DNA of 32,273 bases, from positions 1 to 32,273 of the forward strand of contig CAIMTB010000154.1 in NCBI GenBank assembly GCA_903844265.1, given 5' to 3'. Position 1 is the first letter of the stretch; each line of letters begins with the position of its first letter. Both the position numbers and the translations under genes were made by a program. A model generated the notes under the pieces. The model ran no database searches. It was not told the DNA's origin and saw only the letters and a list, made by a program, of their open reading frames with translations. This DNA comes from an uncultured Verrucomicrobiota bacterium. Its GTDB lineage: Bacteria; Verrucomicrobiota; Verrucomicrobiia; Limisphaerales; CAIMTB01. Positions 1 through 13,083 of this stretch are shown here, piece after piece.

Positions 1-235
1 CCCGTTTACGGTTCACCGCCACTCCCTCGTTCTCCAGCAGTCTGAGCAACCGACGGCTTCCGTACACCGGGTGCTTGAGGTTCAGTTCATCAAGGCGTCG
101 CATGATCGCCAGGTTCTCCGCCGTCTCCGGCTGGCACTCGTAGTACACGCTGCTGCGCGCCACGCCGAGCAGGTCGCACTGATCCCGAATGCTGAGCTCT
201 TCCTTCGGGTCCACCAGCGCACGGAAGTCGCTCAC
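1..235 (-). CDS. IS3-family transposase OrfB (partial, N-terminus only)
   Basis: Reading from GTG at 235 gives a protein beginning VSDFRALVDPKEELSIRDQC and continuing through LLGVARSSVYY and HPVYGSRRLLRLLE. This is the typical N-terminal HTH_21-type region of IS3 OrfB, which precedes the DDE integrase core. The reading frame is open to the window edge, so the catalytic residues are not visible. The GTG overlaps the OrfA stop (GTGA). The natural product is probably an OrfAB fusion: a -1 slip on the A8G run in OrfA leads directly into this frame without a stop. Confidence 0.85.
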   Translation of the reverse strand, partial: MSDFRALVDPKEELSIRDQCDLLGVARSSVYYECQPETAENLAIMRRLDELNLKHPVYGSRRLLRLLENEGVAVNRKR

Positions 236-528
236 AATCCCAGTTGCTTGGACTTTTTTTTCATGAAGTCCAAATCGACACTCAGTTCCCCGATCTTCTG
301 GTGCAGATCGGCAACCAACCGCTCGGTGTCCTCCCCGGCCTTCCCGGCGGTTTCGAAGAGTTCGGGCAAGCGATCCCGGATGACCGCCTTCCACTGGCTC
401 ACCTGTACCGGATGCACGGAATACTCCCGGGCGATCTGGGCCACCGTCTTGATGCCCAGGACGGCCTCCATGCCAACCTTCGCCTTGAATGCTGCGCTGT
501 GTCTCTTTCGCTTTGCTTTGGTGCTCAT
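232..528 (-). CDS. IS3-family transposase OrfA (helix-turn-helix protein)
   Basis: The protein is about 98 aa from the chosen ATG at 528 (MSTKAKRKRHSAAFKAKV). An upstream in-frame ATG at 561 is possible but would add a non-family leader. It shows the IS3 OrfA pattern: a basic N-terminus, a helix-turn-helix with IAREYSVHPVQVSQWK, and a C-terminal leucine-zipper-like segment ending LDFMKKKSKQLGL. It binds the IS ends and, after frameshifting, forms the N-terminal part of the transposase. The codons for MKKK create an A8G slippery run. The frame appears intact, so the element could be functional if its 3' half is. Confidence 0.85.
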   Translation of the reverse strand: MSTKAKRKRHSAAFKAKVGMEAVLGIKTVAQIAREYSVHPVQVSQWKAVIRDRLPELFETAGKAGEDTERLVADLHQKIGELSVDLDFMKKKSKQLGL

Positions 529-601
529 TTGTCTGATCACGTTGTGATTGATCAGACCCACAAAACCATAACTTAACGACTGGTCCGAAAACAGGGGTCC
601 A

Positions 602-689: not shown

Positions 690-1195
690 CTGAGACCGAC
701 TTCAAGCTGCGGGCCTAACTCGCCAAGTTCCTCCAGCCTCTCGGAGTTCTCGGCCCGCACACCGCGATCCATCTGGTGGCCCAGGCCGTGAGCATAGAAG
801 ACGACCGGGAATCGCCCTGGGTCCGCGGCGACCAGCGCGTCGGCGGCCGCGAACTCGACGATAGCGGGCACTCGACTGGCGTAGGTTGCGCTCCAGTAGG
901 CGGAGCGTTCCGCGAGCGGCCGATCCAAGTAAGGGGCCGGCCTGGGACCGGTTTGAGTTTGGGCGGGATACCAAACGGTGACCATGAACGAACTGTTTGT
1001 TCGGATATTGAATCGGTTGGTGCGCGAGGCGTCCGTCAGCATCCGCGACACTGTGCCCACCGCATGGGGGGTCGGTCGGCGCCGGAAAGGCGGTGCTGAA
1101 ATCATTAGTCGGCGTGCGGTAGAAGCGCACCGGAGCGTTCGCGGACGCCTGGTCCACGAACGCCACGATGTTGGGGAGGAGCGGTTGCCGATGCG
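690..1195 (-). pseudogene. Decayed alpha/beta-hydrolase (PAF-acetylhydrolase/dienelactone-hydrolase-like) fragment
   Basis: Two minus-strand frames together resemble the N-terminal half of a secreted PAF-acetylhydrolase-like enzyme. The first frame (from ~1195) reads LLPNIVAFVDQASANAPVRF and runs to ~1070. The second continues with HAVGTVSRMLTDASRTNRFN, a FMVTVWYPAQ strand, a proline-rich linker and FPVVFYAHGLGHQ, the region that forms the oxyanion hole in this fold. The switch falls at a run of six G at 1066-1071, so a one-base indel or a sequencing error could explain it. Similarity stops soon after HGLG, before any nucleophile-elbow GxSxG, next to repeat copy A. No start codon context is evident. 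Family assignment rests on motif recall. Confidence 0.6.
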
Positions 1196-1215: not shown

Positions 1216-1818
1216 TCATTTTCCGGGCTTCCCGGGAAGCTGCAGGACCCCGTCGTAAGTCCAAGTGGCGACCCCGGCGTACGAGTCGCAGAAGCAATCT
1301 GCGCCGCAGAAGAAGAATGCGCCGTTGATCTCGCCGCTCCCTCGCGCGTTCTGGAGGCTTCCGGTGCCGCCCGTGATCGTCACGTCGTAGTGCAGCAGGT
1401 TCATGCTCGGGGTTGGTTTCGGGTCTTTCGGATCGGCATCGGCCCAGCCGGCAACGTCCGCGTGGAGTTCATCGCCGGCCAAAGTGGTGATCGTCAGCGT
1501 GCCCGCGATGCAGAAGTAATGCCGTCCCTCGCAGGCCGTACCGGCGTCGATCTTGACGGCGAACCGCGCCGTGCAGTTTCCGAGGTTCGACAACTGAACC
1601 ACGCCCCGAACCTCATGGTTCCACGGGAAGACGGGATTCCCACCGGCATCCCACAAAGGCGTCAGGTTGAACGCCGTGCCGGCGTTTCCTTTCATGGCGC
1701 TTGTGGTGGTCTTTGCTCGCGGTGGGCCCGCTTGGAGGGCGCTCTGCGAGAGAGCTAGCAGCATCAGCGCCGCCGCGAAGATCCTGCCAAGGTTTGATGG
1801 GATGGTGCGCTTGCGCAT
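1216..1818 (-). CDS. Secreted protein of unknown function
   Basis: This is a ~200-aa exported protein. The start MRKRTIPSNLGRIF gives a standard signal peptide (basic n-region, hydrophobic AAALMLLALSQSALQA, AxA-like cleavage near residue 29). An ATG six codons earlier (1836) is also possible. The mature part is rich in beta-strand-forming sequence and glycine, with cysteines in GNCTARF, TACEGRHYFC and FFFCGADCFC that could form disulfides. The segment DVTITGGTGSLQNARGSGEI recalls the TGxFxGAxGxG signature of dirigent/allene-oxide-cyclase-like barrels, but this is only a resemblance. It ends in a basic LPGKPGK tail. A promoter-like block matching the one before the kinase gene lies ~60-80 nt upstream, suggesting co-regulation by the ECF sigma factor at 5505-6257. 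Confidence 0.75.
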   Translation of the reverse strand: MRKRTIPSNLGRIFAAALMLLALSQSALQAGPPRAKTTTSAMKGNAGTAFNLTPLWDAGGNPVFPWNHEVRGVVQLSNLGNCTARFAVKIDAGTACEGRHYFCIAGTLTITTLAGDELHADVAGWADADPKDPKPTPSMNLLHYDVTITGGTGSLQNARGSGEINGAFFFCGADCFCDSYAGVATWTYDGVLQLPGKPGK

Positions 1819-1897
1819 GAGTTGGATGTCGAGCATAGGCGTGACTTTCGGAGGTGAGGGTTCTTGGTTTCTGTTCGTCGGCGATGGCTCGCCACTT

Positions 1898-1935
1898 CCT
1901 ACCGCAGGGGAAACCGCGGAAGGTTACAGGGAATA
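1898..1935 (-). promoter_or_regulatory. Putative ECF-type promoter, copy 1
   Basis: On the minus strand GTAACCTTCC is followed, 16 nt after AACCTT (1925-1920), by GGTAGG (1903-1898). The same two boxes with the same spacing, in a ~47-bp block matching at about 37 positions, occur upstream of the kinase gene at 5419-5457. Position (60-80 nt before the start) and the AAC-containing upstream box fit an ECF sigma promoter. No transcription start is known. Confidence 0.5.
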
Positions 1936-1991
1936 ATGGTCGCCATTTGAACAGCTGCGGCACGCTCCGCTGCCGGAGCCCGGCGAGAGCA

Positions 1992-2091
1992 GGATGGGCC
2001 TTGGGTTCTTGGCCCATCCGGTGGCCGAGCGTCCGGTCCGGATTTCGGACCCCGCCCATCGGCTTCCACGCCGTCAGGCATTGCCGACGGC
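1992..2091 (-). terminator. Cluster of three hairpins after the kinase gene
   Basis: Three inverted repeats lie immediately downstream of the kinase stop codon. The first is GCCGTC/GACGGC (2070-2091, 10-nt loop), the second GGTCCG/CGGACC (2035-2051, 5-nt loop) and the third a perfect 9-bp stem GGATGGGCC/GGCCCATCC (1992-2019, 10-nt loop). None is followed by a clear T-run on the minus strand, so intrinsic termination is uncertain. They could equally stabilise the mRNA 3' end. Confidence 0.4.
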
Positions 2092-2094
2092 CTT

Positions 2095-5000
2095 CTAGCG
2101 CTCCGCTTTCCCGGCTCCGGCAATCCAGACCCGCGAGGAATCCCCGCTGGTGGAAACCAACCGGCTCCCGTCGGGTGAGAACGCGAGCATGCCGATCCAG
2201 GTGAGGTGCCCGTACAGGACCGCGATTTCGCGCCGGGTCGGCAGGTTGATGAGCTTGAGTATCCCGTCCTGGGTTCCTATCGCCAGGGTCCTGGCATCGG
2301 GCGAGATGGCAACCGAAATAACATTGCCCGCCTCGGGCTGCAGTTCATCGGACTGATCCGTATCCACGTTCCAGATGTGCACACGACCGTCAAGGCTACC
2401 CACGCAGAGGATGTGAGTGCGGGGCACCCAGGCGATCGCCCGGGCGGCCAGGTGGGACCGGGTTGGGAACCGCGCCGGGCGCCAGGAGCGCACGTCCAGG
2501 ATGTGGACGGACCCCTCCTCCCCCACACCCGCTAAGAATTGGCCGTCATGCGAGAAACCGAGGGACAGGAGAGGCTTCGCCGCGGTGGGACCCGGAGCCC
2601 AGATTCCGCGCCGCCGCCAGTCGGTCGTTTCTCGAACGTCGACCACGCCCGGATCCCCCGCGGAGCTAGCCGAGCCCCGACGGAGCGCGAGCCATTGGCC
2701 ATCGGGGGAAAAGACGATGTCCCCGTCCACCACCGTGTCGACGTCTTGGTCGGGAAGTCGTGCCAGGGAACGCGCGTCCCAGACACCGAACCTGTTCGTG
2801 CCGAAGACGCCCACGATCCGCTTGCGATCTGGGGAAAAGGCGGCGTGGCTGACCGGCAGTGTGGCGAGAGTTTGTTCGGATTCGACGTCGCGGATCACCG
2901 CCTGACCCTCTTCTTCTCGGATATTCCGTCGGCCGTCCGGGGAGAAGCCCGTTCCGAGTGCGGTGAAATTGTCGGTTTGCGCGTGCCGGCTATCGAGCGT
3001 GCGAACGTCCCAGAGTTTCACGGTCCCGTCGACGCTGCCCGTGACGAGGAGTTGGCTGTCGGGGGTGAAATCGACGGTCCAGATCCTTCCAACGTGACCC
3101 CGGAGGGTCAGGGGTCTGCCGGCGCGGCTGGATGGGTCCGCGACCTTGACTGTTCGATCCCGGGAGCCCGGCGCCAGTTGGGACAGGTCCCAGAGCTTCG
3201 CGGTATGATCGCGAGACCCGGAGGCGAGCCATCGTCCGTCGGGGGAAAACGCGACTGAGTCGACCGGGCCCTCGTGCGAGCCGAGCGTATTGCTTTCGTC
3301 ACCGGTGACGCGCCACAGTCGCACGGAATGATCCAGCGAGGCGCTCGCCAACCATTGGCCGTCCGGTGAAAAGCGGACGCACGACACGATATTCCCATGA
3401 CGCAGGAAGGACCTCAGGGGGCGTCTGGAAGCCAGGTCCCAGAGCATGATTGATCCATCCGCATGGGGCGTGGCCAGCAAGCGGCCATCCGGGGAGAACG
3501 CAGGCTTCCAGGCATTCGAGGTGTGGCCTTGCAGGTCGAGGAGCTTCGAGTGGGTGTGCCCGTCCCAGATCACGATCTGTCCCGGAAGAGTGCGATTGTA
3601 GAGCCCCCCCTGGTGGGCGGTCGTGACAATGAGACGATCGTCCGGGCTCCAAGCCGCTGCGAAGGGCGCGCACGTGGCCTGCCCCATCAGGTGGGTGATG
3701 AGCGTCCGGCGGTCGAGATCCCAAACATCGAAGCGCTCCCAGTTGGTGGACGACACCAGGCGTTTTCCGTCGTTGGAGAAGGCGACCCCATAGACCCAAC
3801 CGGACTGCGATTGCAGGACCCCAACTTCCTGCCGGGTCATGAGATCCCAGAGGCGGATCCGCCCATCGAGCTCCCCGGTGGCGACCAACCTGCCGGCAGG
3901 AGAACAGGCGAGGCCAAAGACCTGCCGGGCCGCGGGTGGGAGGGTCGGTCCTCCTGGAAGCGTGTCCAATGCGCGTTCCCGGCAGAGCGCGTCGAGATAG
4001 TACCATTCGAAGCCGCGCCGTTCCGGTCGGCCTGGCTTGGGGCGCTGATTCTCCAGCAGGGTCCCGGGCAGCCGGAAGTTGCCGCGTTCCCAGGCTGCGA
4101 ATGCCATCGAGGTTTCCGCCACATACAGGTTCGCCTCCGCCTTGTTGCGTTCCGTCCGCAGGTGCAGGGAGAAGGCCGTGGCGCCGATCGCGAGAGTCAG
4201 GAGGAGGACCAGGGAAGCACCGGCCAGGGCCGCGACGGCGGGACGCCTTCGCATCCACTTGCGCAGGCGTTGGAAGTTCGTGCTGGCCCGCGCCTGGATG
4301 GTTTCGTGGCGCGACCAGCGTTCCAAGTCCTCGGCGAATCCCTCCGCGGAGCCGTAGCGCAGCGCCGGGTCCTTCTCCAGGCACTTCAGGCAGATCGTTT
4401 CCAGGTCAGGATCGACGGCGGGATTGAGCAGCGAAGGCCGACGCGGGTCCTGGTCGAGAACCTGCCGGATGGTTTCCATCGAGGTCCCGCCGCTGAACGG
4501 CGGGGAGCCGGTCAGCATCTCGTAGAGCACGGTGCCGAGTCCGTAGACGTCCGCCGCGGTGGTGACGTCCTTGGTCTGTCCTCGCGCCTGTTCCGGGGAC
4601 ATATAGGCCGGTGTGCCCAGAACCGCGTTGGTGTGGGTCAGGGTGCTTTCCTTCTCGATCAGTTTGGCGAGGCCGAAGTCGGTCAGGTGCGGCACGCCTT
4701 GCGCGTCCATGAGGATGTTGCCGGGCTTCAGATCCCGATGGAGCACCCCGCGCTGGTGGGCGTAGTGGACGGCACGGGCCACCGTGGCCATGAGGCCCGC
4801 GGCTTCGGAGGGAGGATAGGCGGTGGAGATGGTGGGTTCGCCGGGGCTGGGTGGCGCGGAGGATCGGCGAGCGGCTTCGACCGAGGTCATTCCGCGCCGG
4901 TGGCCGCGACTGGCGAGGGCGTCCCGCAGGGTGGGACCTTCGACCAGATCCATGCTGAAGTAGTGCAGGCCTTCGTGCGCGCCGATTTCGTGGATCGGGA

Positions 5001-5379
5001 CGATGTTCGGGTGCATGAGGCTGGCGGCGGCCTCGGCCTCGGCCTTGAAGCGCTTGACGAGGTCGTCCGTGGCGAAGGTGCCGGCGCTGATGACCTTGAG
5101 GGCCACCAAGCGATTCAGGCTGACTTGGCGTGCCTTGAAGACGGTGCCCATCCCGCCGCGCGCGATCTCCTCCAGGAGCTCGTAGTCAGCGAAGTAACGC
5201 GCCCGGCCGGACAGGAACTCCGAGGCACGAGGCGCGGTTTGAGGTGGCGGATCCGCTGGGGAACCGACGGCTGTCGCCTCGCCGTCCTTGGAGAGGCCGA
5301 GGGAGAGGAGGCATCGGATGCAGAGGCCGCGCGGAGCATCCTTCGCGATGGGTTCGCCGCAATCGGAGCAGATTTCCAT
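2095..5379 (-). CDS. Membrane Ser/Thr protein kinase with N-terminal zinc ribbon and C-terminal WD40 propeller
   Basis: This 1094-aa protein is a Hanks-type kinase fused to a WD40 sensor domain. Residues 4-23 form a CxxC...CxxC zinc-ribbon-like motif. The kinase domain (~66-355) has the glycine loop [14 protein letters not shown]95 in VALKVI, catalytic HRDLKPGN (D216), DFG at 234-236 and [11 protein letters not shown]. All key residues are present, so it should be active. A ~35-residue Ser/Pro insertion sits at about 155-190. A single transmembrane helix (about 380-405) separates the cytoplasmic kinase from a distal region with many WD40 repeats ([21 protein letters not shown] type), extending to the C-terminus. 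It would phosphorylate proteins in response to a ligand at the propeller; the target is unknown. An ECF sigma factor gene lies 125 bp upstream on the same strand, an arrangement common in Verrucomicrobiota and Planctomycetota. A promoter-like block directly precedes the gene. Confidence 0.93.
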
Positions 5380-5418
5380 GGAGGGTTTGGCGGGCGTTGT
5401 GAGGGACTCCTGCCATTC

Positions 5419-5457
5419 CCTACCGCAGGAGGAACGGCGGAAGGTTACCGGAGATAT
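5419..5457 (-). promoter_or_regulatory. Putative ECF-type promoter, copy 2 (kinase gene)
   Basis: On the minus strand GGTAACCTTCC is followed by GGTAGG (5424-5419), with 16 nt between AACCTT (5446-5441) and the downstream box. The block is ~79% identical to that at 1898-1935. It lies between the sigma factor gene and the kinase start at 5379, giving a predicted leader of about 30-35 nt. This implies that the kinase can be transcribed separately from the sigma gene. Confidence 0.5.
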
Positions 5458-5504: not shown

Positions 5505-6257
5505 TCATCGGCCGAGGACAGTCTGGAGATGGCGGATCTCCTGCGTGGCCTCCTCCGGTGTCGCCACGGTCCGGGCGATCTCCTGGCGCAGCAGTTCGCC
5601 GTAGCGCTTTCGCAGCCGATGAACGGCGACCTTCACCGCGCCCTCGCTGATGCCGAGACTGGCCGCGACCGCCGCGTGGGGGATCAGGTTCTTGTCGCCG
5701 GAGAGGAAGGGCTGCAAGTGTTCGAAGACCCTCGATCGTTCCGGGGCCTCGTGCTCTTCGCGCAGGCGGCCCAAGGCCTGGTCAAGCAGGGTCAAGGCCC
5801 ACCGGCGCTCGAACAGGTGCTCGGGGGTGCGGTTGTCTTCGAGTTCAAGCGCGTAGCGCGCCTCGGCATCAAGGTCGTCGAGGGAGAAATGGACCTTGTC
5901 GCCGCCGCGCTTCTGGGCGCGGGCGCGATCCCATTCGTTGGCGAGAAAGTGGTTGAGCGCTGTGAGCAGGTAGGAGCGGAATCGGCCCCCTTCGCGGGTG
6001 ATCTCGCGTAAGTGGCTTTTCTCCAGGAGGCGCGCGAAGAACGCCTGCGTGAGATCTTCGGCGGCATGGCGGTCATGCCCTCGCCGTCGGATGTAGGCGT
6101 ACAGCGGATACCAGTAGGTGCGGCACAGTCCCTCAAGCGCTTCGGTCGCCTGCGGCGACTCCCCAAGTCCGGCCGCCAGGACAAGGCTCCAGTGAGTCGT
6201 GTGGAACCCCGCCCCGCCCAAGGATCGATCGGGGGCGTTTTCGCCGTGTAGCGCCAT
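5505..6257 (-). CDS. ECF-type RNA polymerase sigma factor
   Basis: From ATG at 6257 (MALHGENAPDRSLGG) this is a 250-aa sigma-70-family protein. The N-terminal part carries TTHWSLVLAAG, then region 2 with YWYPLYAYIRRRGHDRHAAE and DLTQAFFARLLEK. Region 2.4-like sequence includes RFRSYLLTALNHFLANEWDR. Region 4 has a helix-turn-helix in LGISEGAVKVAVHRLRKRYG. It is longer than minimal ECFs because of an acidic linker (~120-165). The frame stays open upstream for another ~100 codons, but that stretch translates repeat copy B, so the later start is chosen. It would direct RNA polymerase to a small regulon, perhaps including the two promoter-like blocks at 1898 and 5419. No anti-sigma gene is adjacent; the kinase is the likely regulatory partner. 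Confidence 0.9.
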   Translation of the reverse strand: MALHGENAPDRSLGGAGFHTTHWSLVLAAGLGESPQATEALEGLCRTYWYPLYAYIRRRGHDRHAAEDLTQAFFARLLEKSHLREITREGGRFRSYLLTALNHFLANEWDRARAQKRGGDKVHFSLDDLDAEARYALELEDNRTPEHLFERRWALTLLDQALGRLREEHEAPERSRVFEHLQPFLSGDKNLIPHAAVAASLGISEGAVKVAVHRLRKRYGELLRQEIARTVATPEEATQEIRHLQTVLGR

Positions 6258-6322: not shown

Positions 6323-6586
6323 TGGGGTCAAACATTGACTGTTGACATTTCCGCATTTCCGTATTGATGCGACGTGCGGTCCCCGCCCGTTCCACGCCGT
6401 CAGCAGTCCGGGGTCGGCAACAACGAATCCCCTGCGCCGGCGCCACAGGCTTCAAGCCACGCACCTCGCGCACGATCTCCACCAATCGCGAAACCAGGAG
6501 GCGTGGGGCCATCTGAAGTTGTGTCCGCACCCGCTCGGGTCGAGCGGCGATTCGAGTCAAATGTCAACTGTCAATGTTTGACCCCA
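6323..6586. repeat. Repeat family 1, copy B (264 bp, longest copy)
   Basis: The left end (6323-6347) and right end (6562-6586) are 25-bp inverted repeats with one mismatch. The interior has two recognisable modules. The left module (TTCCGCATTTCCGTATTGAT...CAGTCCGGGGTCGG) is shared with copy D. The right module (ACCAATCGCGAAACC...CGTGGGGCCATCTGAAGT) is shared with copy C. The element occupies most of the gap between the sigma factor and the helicase-partner gene, whose stop codon is 13 bp beyond the right end. No protein is credibly encoded. Confidence 0.9.
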
Positions 6587-11398: not shown

Positions 11399-11559
11399 TG
11401 GGGTCAAACATTGACTGTTGACACTTGCGTGTCGAGACGCCGTGCCACCTCGACCAATCGCGAAACCGGGAGACGTGGGGCCATCTGAAGTGGCCTCAGC
11501 GCCGCGCGATGCCGCGAGGCGCGCTCGACTCAAATGTCGACTGTCAATGTTTGACCCCA
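11399..11559. repeat. Repeat family 1, copy C (161 bp)
   Basis: The left end is 11399-11423 and the right end 11535-11559, a 25-bp inverted repeat with two mismatches. Relative to copy B it lacks the left module (TTCCGCATTTCC...) but keeps the right one (ACCAATCGCGAAACCGGGAG, GTGGGGCCATCTGAAGT). It fills the divergent gap between the helicase start and the propeller-protein start, so it may carry or separate their promoters. The remaining ~118 bp before the helicase start hold no recognised feature. Confidence 0.9.
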
Positions 11560-11603: not shown

Positions 11604-12962
11604 ATGAAGCGCCACCCCCTGACTCCCTTCCTGGCCCTGTTCAGCGCCGCAGCCATGACAGTCGCCGCGCAGTCCTTCGACTGGCCGCAGTGGCAGGGCC
11701 CCGACCGGAACGCAACTTCGAAGGAAGCCGGGTTGCTCAAGCAATGGTCGAAAGACGGCCCGCCGCTAGCCTGGAAGATCCAGGGACTTGGCGGTGGCTA
11801 CGGCGCTCCGTCCGTTGCCGCGGGGCGGATGTTCGGCATGAGTAGTCGTGGCGAGGACGAGGTTGTCTGGGCTCGATCCGAGGCGGATGGCAAGGAAGTG
11901 TGGGGTGCGCGTCTGGGTCCGGCTCTGACCGAAGGAGCGCCGCAGGGAAAGGAGGGTGCAGGGTGCGCACCGACGGTGGATGGCGAGCGGCTGTATGTTC
12001 TGGGCTTGGGCGGCGACCTGGCCTGCCTGCAAGTGCAGGACGGCAAGATTGTCTGGCGACGCAGTGTGGCCAATGATTTCGGCGGGATACTCCCGACTTG
12101 GCGATACAACGAATCGCCACTTGTTGACGGCGACAAAGTCGTCTGCACGCCGGGAGGCAAAGACGCGACGATCGTCGCCCTGAACAAGTTGACCGGCGAA
12201 ACGATCTGGAAGACGGCAGTGACCGAGCCTTCCGGCGGCAGTTCCGGCGGCCCGGGCGGGGGACGCGGAGGCGGGCGTCCCGGCTTCAGGGACTCTGGAG
12301 CTTCCTATTCCTCGGCCATAGCGATCGATTTCGGGGGGCAGCGTGAATACGTGCAGTTCACCTCGAAGGCGTTGGTCGGCGTCGCGGCGTCTGACGGGAA
12401 GTTCCTCTGGCGGTATGACCGGCCTGCCAACCGGATGGGTATCCACTGTTCGACGCCCATCTACCAGGAGGGTCTGGTTTTCGCCGCCTCGGCCTACGGG
12501 GCTGGAGGTGGGCTGGTGAGGCTGGGCAAGGATGGGAACGGCGGCATCAAAGCCGACGAAGTCTGGTTCTCCAAGAACATGGAAAACCACCATGGGGGCG
12601 TGTTGGTCTTGGATGGTTGCCTCTATGGCAGCAACGGCGGCAACGGCGGTGGCTACCTCGTCTGTCTCGATTTCGCGACCGGCGACGTCTTGTGGAACGA
12701 GCGCGACGCGGACAAGCGACGTGTGACGAAGGGCTCCGTCGCGCTGGCGGACGGGCGAATCTACTATCGCACCGAGGAGGGCACCGTTCTGCTGGTTGAG
12801 CCCAGCCGGAAGGAGTATCTTGAGCGTGGGCGCTTTGAGCAGCCCGACCGCACGAAGCAGCCGGCCTGGACTCATCCTGTCATCGCAAACGGACGACTCT
12901 ATATTCGCGATCAGGACACACTCTTTTCCTACAACGTGCGGGCCGATGGGGTCAAACATTGA
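11604..12962 (+). CDS. Secreted PQQ-like (quinoprotein-type) beta-propeller protein
   Basis: From ATG at 11604 the product is 452 aa with a signal peptide (MKRHPLTPFLALFSAAAMTVAAQ). The mature start SFDWPQWQGPDRNATSKE is the hallmark of the PQQ-like outer-membrane-biogenesis/propeller family abundant in Planctomycetota and Verrucomicrobiota. Repeated blades follow, for example GKEVWGARLG, DGKIVWRRSV, TGETIWKTAV, DGKFLWRYDR and TGDVLWNERD. A Gly/Arg-rich loop (PGGGRGGGRPGF) sits near the middle. Such proteins act in the periplasm as scaffolds or sugar/alcohol-oxidation-related propellers; no catalytic residues can be assigned. The last residues GVKH are encoded by repeat copy D, whose left end provides the stop codon, so the native C-terminus after LFSYNVRAD was replaced or trimmed by about a codon or two. 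Confidence 0.9.
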   Translation: MKRHPLTPFLALFSAAAMTVAAQSFDWPQWQGPDRNATSKEAGLLKQWSKDGPPLAWKIQGLGGGYGAPSVAAGRMFGMSSRGEDEVVWARSEADGKEVWGARLGPALTEGAPQGKEGAGCAPTVDGERLYVLGLGGDLACLQVQDGKIVWRRSVANDFGGILPTWRYNESPLVDGDKVVCTPGGKDATIVALNKLTGETIWKTAVTEPSGGSSGGPGGGRGGGRPGFRDSGASYSSAIAIDFGGQREYVQFTSKALVGVAASDGKFLWRYDRPANRMGIHCSTPIYQEGLVFAASAYGAGGGLVRLGKDGNGGIKADEVWFSKNMENHHGGVLVLDGCLYGSNGGNGGGYLVCLDFATGDVLWNERDADKRRVTKGSVALADGRIYYRTEEGTVLLVEPSRKEYLERGRFEQPDRTKQPAWTHPVIANGRLYIRDQDTLFSYNVRADGVKH

Positions 12963-13083
12963 CTGTTGACAGTTCCGCATTTCCGTATTGATAGGACGTG
13001 CGGCCCCCGCCCGTTCCATGCCGTCATCAGTCCGGGGTCGGCTGCGATTCGAGTCAAATGTCAACTGTCAATGTTTGACCCCA
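12947..13083. repeat. Repeat family 1, copy D (137 bp)
   Basis: The left end is 12947-12971 and the right end 13059-13083, a 25-bp inverted repeat with one mismatch. It keeps the left module of copy B (TTCCGCATTTCCGTATTGAT, CCCGCCCGTTCCATGCCGTC) and lacks the right module. The element lies between two convergent genes. Its left end overlaps the last codons of the propeller gene, and its right end lies 14 bp from the rhamnosidase stop codon. A bidirectional transcription-termination role is possible but unproven. Confidence 0.9.

Follow-up and report, generated by a model that had tools for sequence, protein, structure and literature searches.

ECF sigma factors that are activated by a kinase have been established for the ECF43 group, in which the acidic motif of region 2.2 gives way to a Thr (PMC8999054, PMC13147305). 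Activation by phosphorylation has been proposed for kinase-associated groups, which, ECF43 aside, retain a DAED-like motif (PMC8999054). Kinase-linked ECF sigma factors are numerous in Planctomycetota and Verrucomicrobiota, and in the literature searchable here we did not find their promoters and targets described; the same applied to any promoter or target of the ECF59, ECF61, ECF62 and ECF217 groups.

Here we present the analysis of a 32,273-nucleotide stretch of DNA from an uncultured Verrucomicrobiota bacterium (the whole stretch is called the window), in which an ECF sigma factor gene is followed by a Ser/Thr kinase gene and a gene for an exported protein. Two similar blocks precede the kinase and exported-protein genes, and sequence comparisons across relatives indicate, with a probability that we put at roughly 0.9, that both are ECF promoters read by the adjacent sigma factor.

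Organisation of the locus

All three genes are on the minus strand, with the sigma factor gene first, then the kinase and exported-protein genes. The features of the locus, including the two candidate promoters, are as follows:

5505-6257, minus strand: ECF sigma factor gene; 250 aa; sigma2 + sigma4; Pfam PF04542/PF07638, NCBIfam sigma70-ECF
5410-5456, minus strand: putative kinase promoter; -35 GTAACCTT at 5441-5448, 16-nt spacer, -10 GGTAGG at 5419-5424, about 40 nt 5′ of the kinase ATG
2095-5379, minus strand: Hanks-type Ser/Thr kinase gene; 1094 aa; Pfam Pkinase + WD40
1889-1935, minus strand: putative promoter of the exported-protein gene; -35 GTAACCTT at 1920-1927, -10 GGTAGG at 1898-1903
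1216-1836, minus strand: exported-protein gene; 206 aa, signal-peptide-like N-terminus; dirigent/AOC-barrel-like by predicted structure
713-1090, minus strand: PAF-acetylhydrolase-like gene remnant; aligns with L178:13811-15130 over 126 aa (52% identity)

The product of 5505-6257 has sigma2 and sigma4 only, as ECF (group 4) sigma factors do, and the Sigma70_r2, Sigma70_ECF and sigma70-ECF profiles cover residues 39-219 of 250. It also contains a conserved N-terminal TTxWS segment and a conserved C-terminal tail, and its closest named relatives come from Verrucomicrobiota, mainly Limisphaerales/Pedosphaera MAGs. A Hanks-type kinase gene adjoins the sigma gene, which defines a kinase-associated ECF. 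The kinase comprises an N-terminal zinc ribbon, a kinase domain (residues 66-346), one likely transmembrane helix and C-terminal WD40 repeats; the HRDLKP and DFG motifs and the zinc ribbon can be read in its translation.

For the exported protein, an eight-strand barrel was predicted with a pLDDT of 73. The best PDB matches in Foldseek were plant dirigent proteins, followed by the cyclase PloI4, pyocyanin demethylase and allene oxide cyclase, with probabilities of 0.9-1.0 and TM values of about 0.3-0.4; the top match had a probability of 1.00, an E value of about 1e-3 and a TM of about 0.4. The protein had no Pfam match, the dirigent family PF03018 included, and two of its relatives matched Pfam dirigent weakly, below threshold. 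Bacteria are known to have dirigent-like domains (PMC9344732). As a working label, we say that the protein looks like a dirigent/allene-oxide-cyclase-type barrel.

Elements delimited by 28-nt inverted repeats (GGGGTCAAACATTGACNGTNGACATTT) occur at 6323-6586, 11400-11558 and 12948-13082, with a single end at 640-667, and the 115 copies of this repeat in the genome point to a MITE-like family. The copy directly upstream of the sigma gene may influence sigma expression. By eye, IS3-type transposase coding is seen at positions 1-560 (minus strand), close to the end of the contig, and it may be connected with the truncated state of the hydrolase gene.

Two similar blocks precede the kinase and exported-protein genes

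An earlier note on this DNA, made from the letters alone, had described two 47-bp minus-strand blocks with about 37 matches. This identity was reproduced (37 of 47 positions, in register) between 1889-1935 and 5410-5456, whereas the coordinates given for the second block, 5411-5457, were one position off and yield 17 matches. Between the two upstream gaps, 45-mers matched at up to 37 of 45 positions, whereas 2000 shuffles gave 29 at most, and an independent repeat search also returned the pair (45 nt, 82%). Both blocks contain GTAACCTT-N16-GGTAGG and, as the note had it, AACCTT and GGTAGG lie exactly 16 nt apart in each. In addition, 8 of the 10 central spacer positions are alike in the two sites (1898-1927 and 5419-5448), beyond what sigma recognition requires.

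The note had also proposed scanning the genome, on the grounds that a motif common inside coding regions would speak against a promoter. In the assembly (6.0 Mb, 671 contigs, 92.6% complete), the motif with its spacing freed to N14-18 gave four matches, two of them the window sites, compared with three in the reversed control; the other two were devoid of the remainder of the core. When an 18-position core was searched with up to three mismatches, only the two window sites fell below three mismatches, and matches with three mismatches were at control level. The site is thus not common in coding DNA, and no third core copy with fewer than three mismatches was found.

A promoter type shared by kinase-linked sigma loci

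Homologues of the sigma factor were found in 52 of the 58 genomes searched across the order, a single genome having as many as 43 and its own genome 10. Of the first 55 loci, 41 had a zinc-ribbon Ser/Thr kinase gene directly after the sigma gene, as did 91 of 125 in a larger set. Among the 41 sigma-kinase gaps, GTAAC-N20-GTA was present in 10, while 0.05 were expected from shuffles, and none had GTAAC and GTA at spacings of 18, 19, 21 or 22. A second spacing class, GTAAC-N17-GTA, was observed in three of the 41 gaps (L022, which is the same as L070; L040; and L042); the corresponding sigma factors may have a different geometry, and these gaps were kept out of the matrix argument.

A promoter matrix was built from 86 sigma-kinase gaps, the window being excluded, and reads roughly TGTAACCTTt-N9-TTtCTTNNGTAAcGGGTGgAA. 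In the window, the site of the exported-protein gene had the best score (23.8), followed by the kinase site (23.4), and the next position scored 6.4. In the reversed control of 1.76 million positions, none reached 23 and one reached 15. A matrix trained without the window thus ranked the two blocks first and second, far above the rest, and the proposal that their conservation is regulatory is largely supported. Among held-out gaps, 25 of 47 scored at least 8, compared with none of 141 control regions. A clear site was missing from about half of the sigma-kinase gaps, which means that promoters are variable or located elsewhere. No site of this type was found upstream of the sigma gene (5505-6257).

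Genome-wide, 20 exact consensus matches occurred in 146 genomes, about 15 of them at zinc-ribbon kinase genes and mostly right behind a sigma gene. The raw count of the loose consensus GTAACN13TTCYTNNGTA over these 146 genomes was not above the reversed control; its signal is where the matches fall rather than how many there are. The family-wide sequence model gave four matches in the whole genome of the window. Two are the window sites, a third (C92:5363) lies at a different sigma-kinase locus and the fourth (C391:11692) is probably a false positive. Two further observations concern this promoter type. Most kinase promoters have a conserved GGGTGRAA following the GTA (columns 30-41, past the -10), which may be a start-region or ribosome-binding signal. 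On contig C92 of the same genome, an ECF-type site (L042:5359-5398) precedes a gene whose 649-aa product is an exported NHL-like protein; two other sigma-kinase pairs of this genome lie next to it.

The exported protein recurs in related modules

The earlier note had stated that nothing else connects the two genes. This does not hold, because relatives conserve both the gene order (sigma, kinase, exported protein) and the second promoter. In four genomes (G001, G002, G101 and G139), a homologue of the exported protein is encoded 3′ of a sigma gene and a WD40 kinase gene, in the same order; in G012 the homologue is divergent, beside the sigma gene, and at a second G139 locus (L174) the contig end cuts the kinase. 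There is a further module at L189 and a more distant one in G042 (L071). The majority of these homologues have their own ECF-type promoter. The upstream site is GTAACTTTGGTCCGCCATTCCTTCGGTAGC in G001, GTAAGGTTTTCCCGGTTTTCCTGTTGTAGA in G139, GTAACTTCCGCCCCGTTTTCCTTTAGAACC in G012 and GTGACCTC..TTTTCCTGTGGTAAC in both G101 and the second G139 locus, and the G002 site has a spacing longer by one base. A distant additional copy in G139 (C241:21021) had no site upstream.

In G002, a third promoter copy (L178:15176-15215) precedes an intact PAF-acetylhydrolase-like gene (Pfam PAF-AH_p_II), a relative of the remnant in the window. In other modules the second site lies before other proteins, several of which have signal-peptide-like, Tat-like or pilin-like starts; those at L070:8475 and L200 were observed to have a type IV pilin-like N-terminus (FTLIELLVVIAIIAILA).

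Correspondence between sigma residues and promoter bases

We compared 17 automatically chosen pairs of kinase site and second site with sites of different loci. Variants of the -10 were shared within a locus (p, 0 of 20000) and so were those of the -35 (6 of 20000), while spacer and downstream bases showed no such sharing; a pair set assembled by hand agreed. Over 92 sigma/site pairs, with statistics that only partly remove shared ancestry, the strongest covariation linked sigma2 residue 107 with -10 column 21 (Z 18.9; N with T, D with C), residues 86, 90, 103 and 110 of sigma2.3-2.4 with -10 columns 22-24, and residues 206, 209, 210 and 213 of sigma4.2 with -35 columns 1, 2 and 5 (Z up to 13.3). 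No spacer or downstream column reached a Z of 5. As the sites were picked by a matrix that is blind to the sigma factor, the test is not circular, and the covarying positions have the arrangement expected from physical ECF-promoter contacts. The window sites have AAC in the -35, a fixed spacing, a short -10 and bases that follow sigma residues, as ECF-type promoters do.

Each second site was then used to rank 197 sigma factors, its cognate pair being omitted from the counts, and the cognate sigma factor stood at a mean percentile of 0.07. This leave-one-out ranking is not fully blind, since the full set had served to choose the residue pairs. There were two clear failures, one L044 site and L128, both at a neighbouring sigma gene. 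The window sigma factor was 7th of 197 for its own second site. Against the pairing, its D110 usually goes with T, yet both window sites have G at that position. The small regulon of kinase and exported protein that the note had put under this sigma factor is backed by the promoter matrix, the pairing and the genome-wide rarity of the sites.

A proposed circuit and the role of the kinase

In the circuit that we propose, the WD40 part of the kinase, probably outward-facing, would sense something outside the cell, and the kinase would activate the sigma factor, most likely by phosphorylation. The sigma factor would then transcribe more kinase, creating a positive feedback, together with an exported effector, the small barrel protein. 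The comparisons above support the promoters, the sigma-promoter pairing and the conserved module; we infer the external signal, the phosphorylation and what the exported protein does. That the sigma factor is activated by its partner kinase appears somewhat probable to us. As the sigma gene has no such promoter, any feedback would pass through the kinase gene and not through autoregulation of the sigma gene.

In region 2.2 of the family, position 68 is always D and position 65 is acidic in 89%; the window sigma factor has AAED. With these acidic residues kept, phosphorylation, if any, should act elsewhere on the sigma factor. Ser/Thr residues are invariant or nearly invariant at positions 21, 24 and 230 and could be targets of the kinase. 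The C-terminal tail past sigma4 (residues 226-244) was observed to be kept in nearly all homologues (T230, E240, R242, L244), and it is possible that it serves as a kinase docking or phosphorylation segment.

The promoters might also be as described while its own abundance or an unlinked anti-sigma factor controls the sigma factor, the kinase being merely a target. The retained acidic residues favour this alternative, given that they make a phospho-switch of the ECF43 kind unnecessary for core binding. However, the sigma-kinase linkage is tight across the order, the conserved Ser/Thr residues offer possible phosphorylation targets, and an unsystematic look noticed no recognisable anti-sigma gene adjoining the sigma gene. 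We hold this alternative to be rather unlikely, with an appreciable chance of being correct.

Other readings of the blocks

Three further readings concern the blocks themselves, and each appears far less probable. In the first, the sites are ECF promoters whose main reader is a different paralogue; the genome has 10 same-family matches and, for Pfam Sigma70_ECF, 18. However, when the window was withheld from training, the window sigma factor scored +4.6 for the exported-protein site while five paralogues, out of the other nine in this genome, scored from -5.0 to -8.8; moreover, the window sigma gene adjoins the sites, as in relatives. The adjacent sigma factor, which the note had named as the obvious candidate, is thus the best match among those tested in its own genome, and we consider another reader improbable.

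Slightly less credible still, the blocks could be an operator for a dimeric repressor or an RNA hairpin, as they contain an imperfect inverted repeat (CCTTCCGC-N10-GCGGTAGG) whose arms pair at 7 of 8 positions in each window site. In relatives, however, the halves pair no better than mismatched halves (2.46 compared with 2.58 of 8), and the conserved positions are those of sigma contact rather than the repeat arms, so that the operator has no support across the family. The least probable reading, a recent promoter copy or other duplication without shared control, would account for the likeness of the spacers, which sigma recognition alone does not require, but the sequence beyond the blocks is unrelated and other loci have paired sites with unrelated spacers and yet matching -35 and -10.

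Implications

The locus and its relatives define the promoter and supply local targets, along with a residue-to-base code open to testing. This code could predict the sigma factor from the promoter or the reverse in genomes with up to about 40 paralogues. The locus and its relatives also point to exported proteins as an output of these sensor kinases. On balance, we lean towards the view that Verrucomicrobiota genomes contain many parallel cassettes of sensor kinase, sigma factor and exported effector, insulated from each other by a readable residue-base code (residues 107 and 103 with the -10; 209, 210 and 213 with the -35) and many with their own adjacent exported effector. The window would be one of them, with a dirigent-like effector. 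Feedback through the promoter of the kinase gene, adjacent exported targets and the residue-base code were not found described in the literature searchable here.

Comparison with known systems

The exported protein resembles dirigent/AOC proteins, including bacterial dirigent-like proteins and PodA, in its predicted eight-strand barrel and its GGTGxxxxARG motif, and differs in lying below the Pfam dirigent cut-off and in a TM-score of only about 0.4.

Classical autoregulated ECF promoters (-35 AAC, -10 CGT) are similar to the window type in their AAC-containing -35, short -10 and fixed spacing (PMC8103513). In contrast, the window type has GTA/GGTA as the -10, with a conserved TTCYT before it and GGGTGRAA after it, and its feedback would go through the kinase gene instead of the sigma gene.

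Among kinase-associated systems, the ECF43 pairs EcfP/PknT of Vibrio parahaemolyticus and EcfK/PknS of Xanthomonas citri likewise have a sigma gene beside a transmembrane Hanks-type kinase, and ECF43 targets act at or outside the envelope, like the exported target in the window (PMC8999054, PMC13147305). ECF43 sigma factors have a phosphorylated Thr in place of the acidic DxxD/DAED of region 2.2, whereas the window family keeps acidic residues. Membership in ECF43, and with it the ECF43 phospho-switch, was rejected, as the uncharged QTTA/STTA is replaced by AAED in the window and D68 is invariant. In addition, the kinase gene in the window itself bears the promoter of the sigma factor, and a second target is often next door. 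The planctomycete groups ECF59, ECF61, ECF62 and ECF217 also have the sigma gene beside a Ser/Thr kinase gene (PMC8999054). Altogether, the window system is a variant of the known pairs of ECF sigma factor and Ser/Thr kinase that lies outside ECF43.
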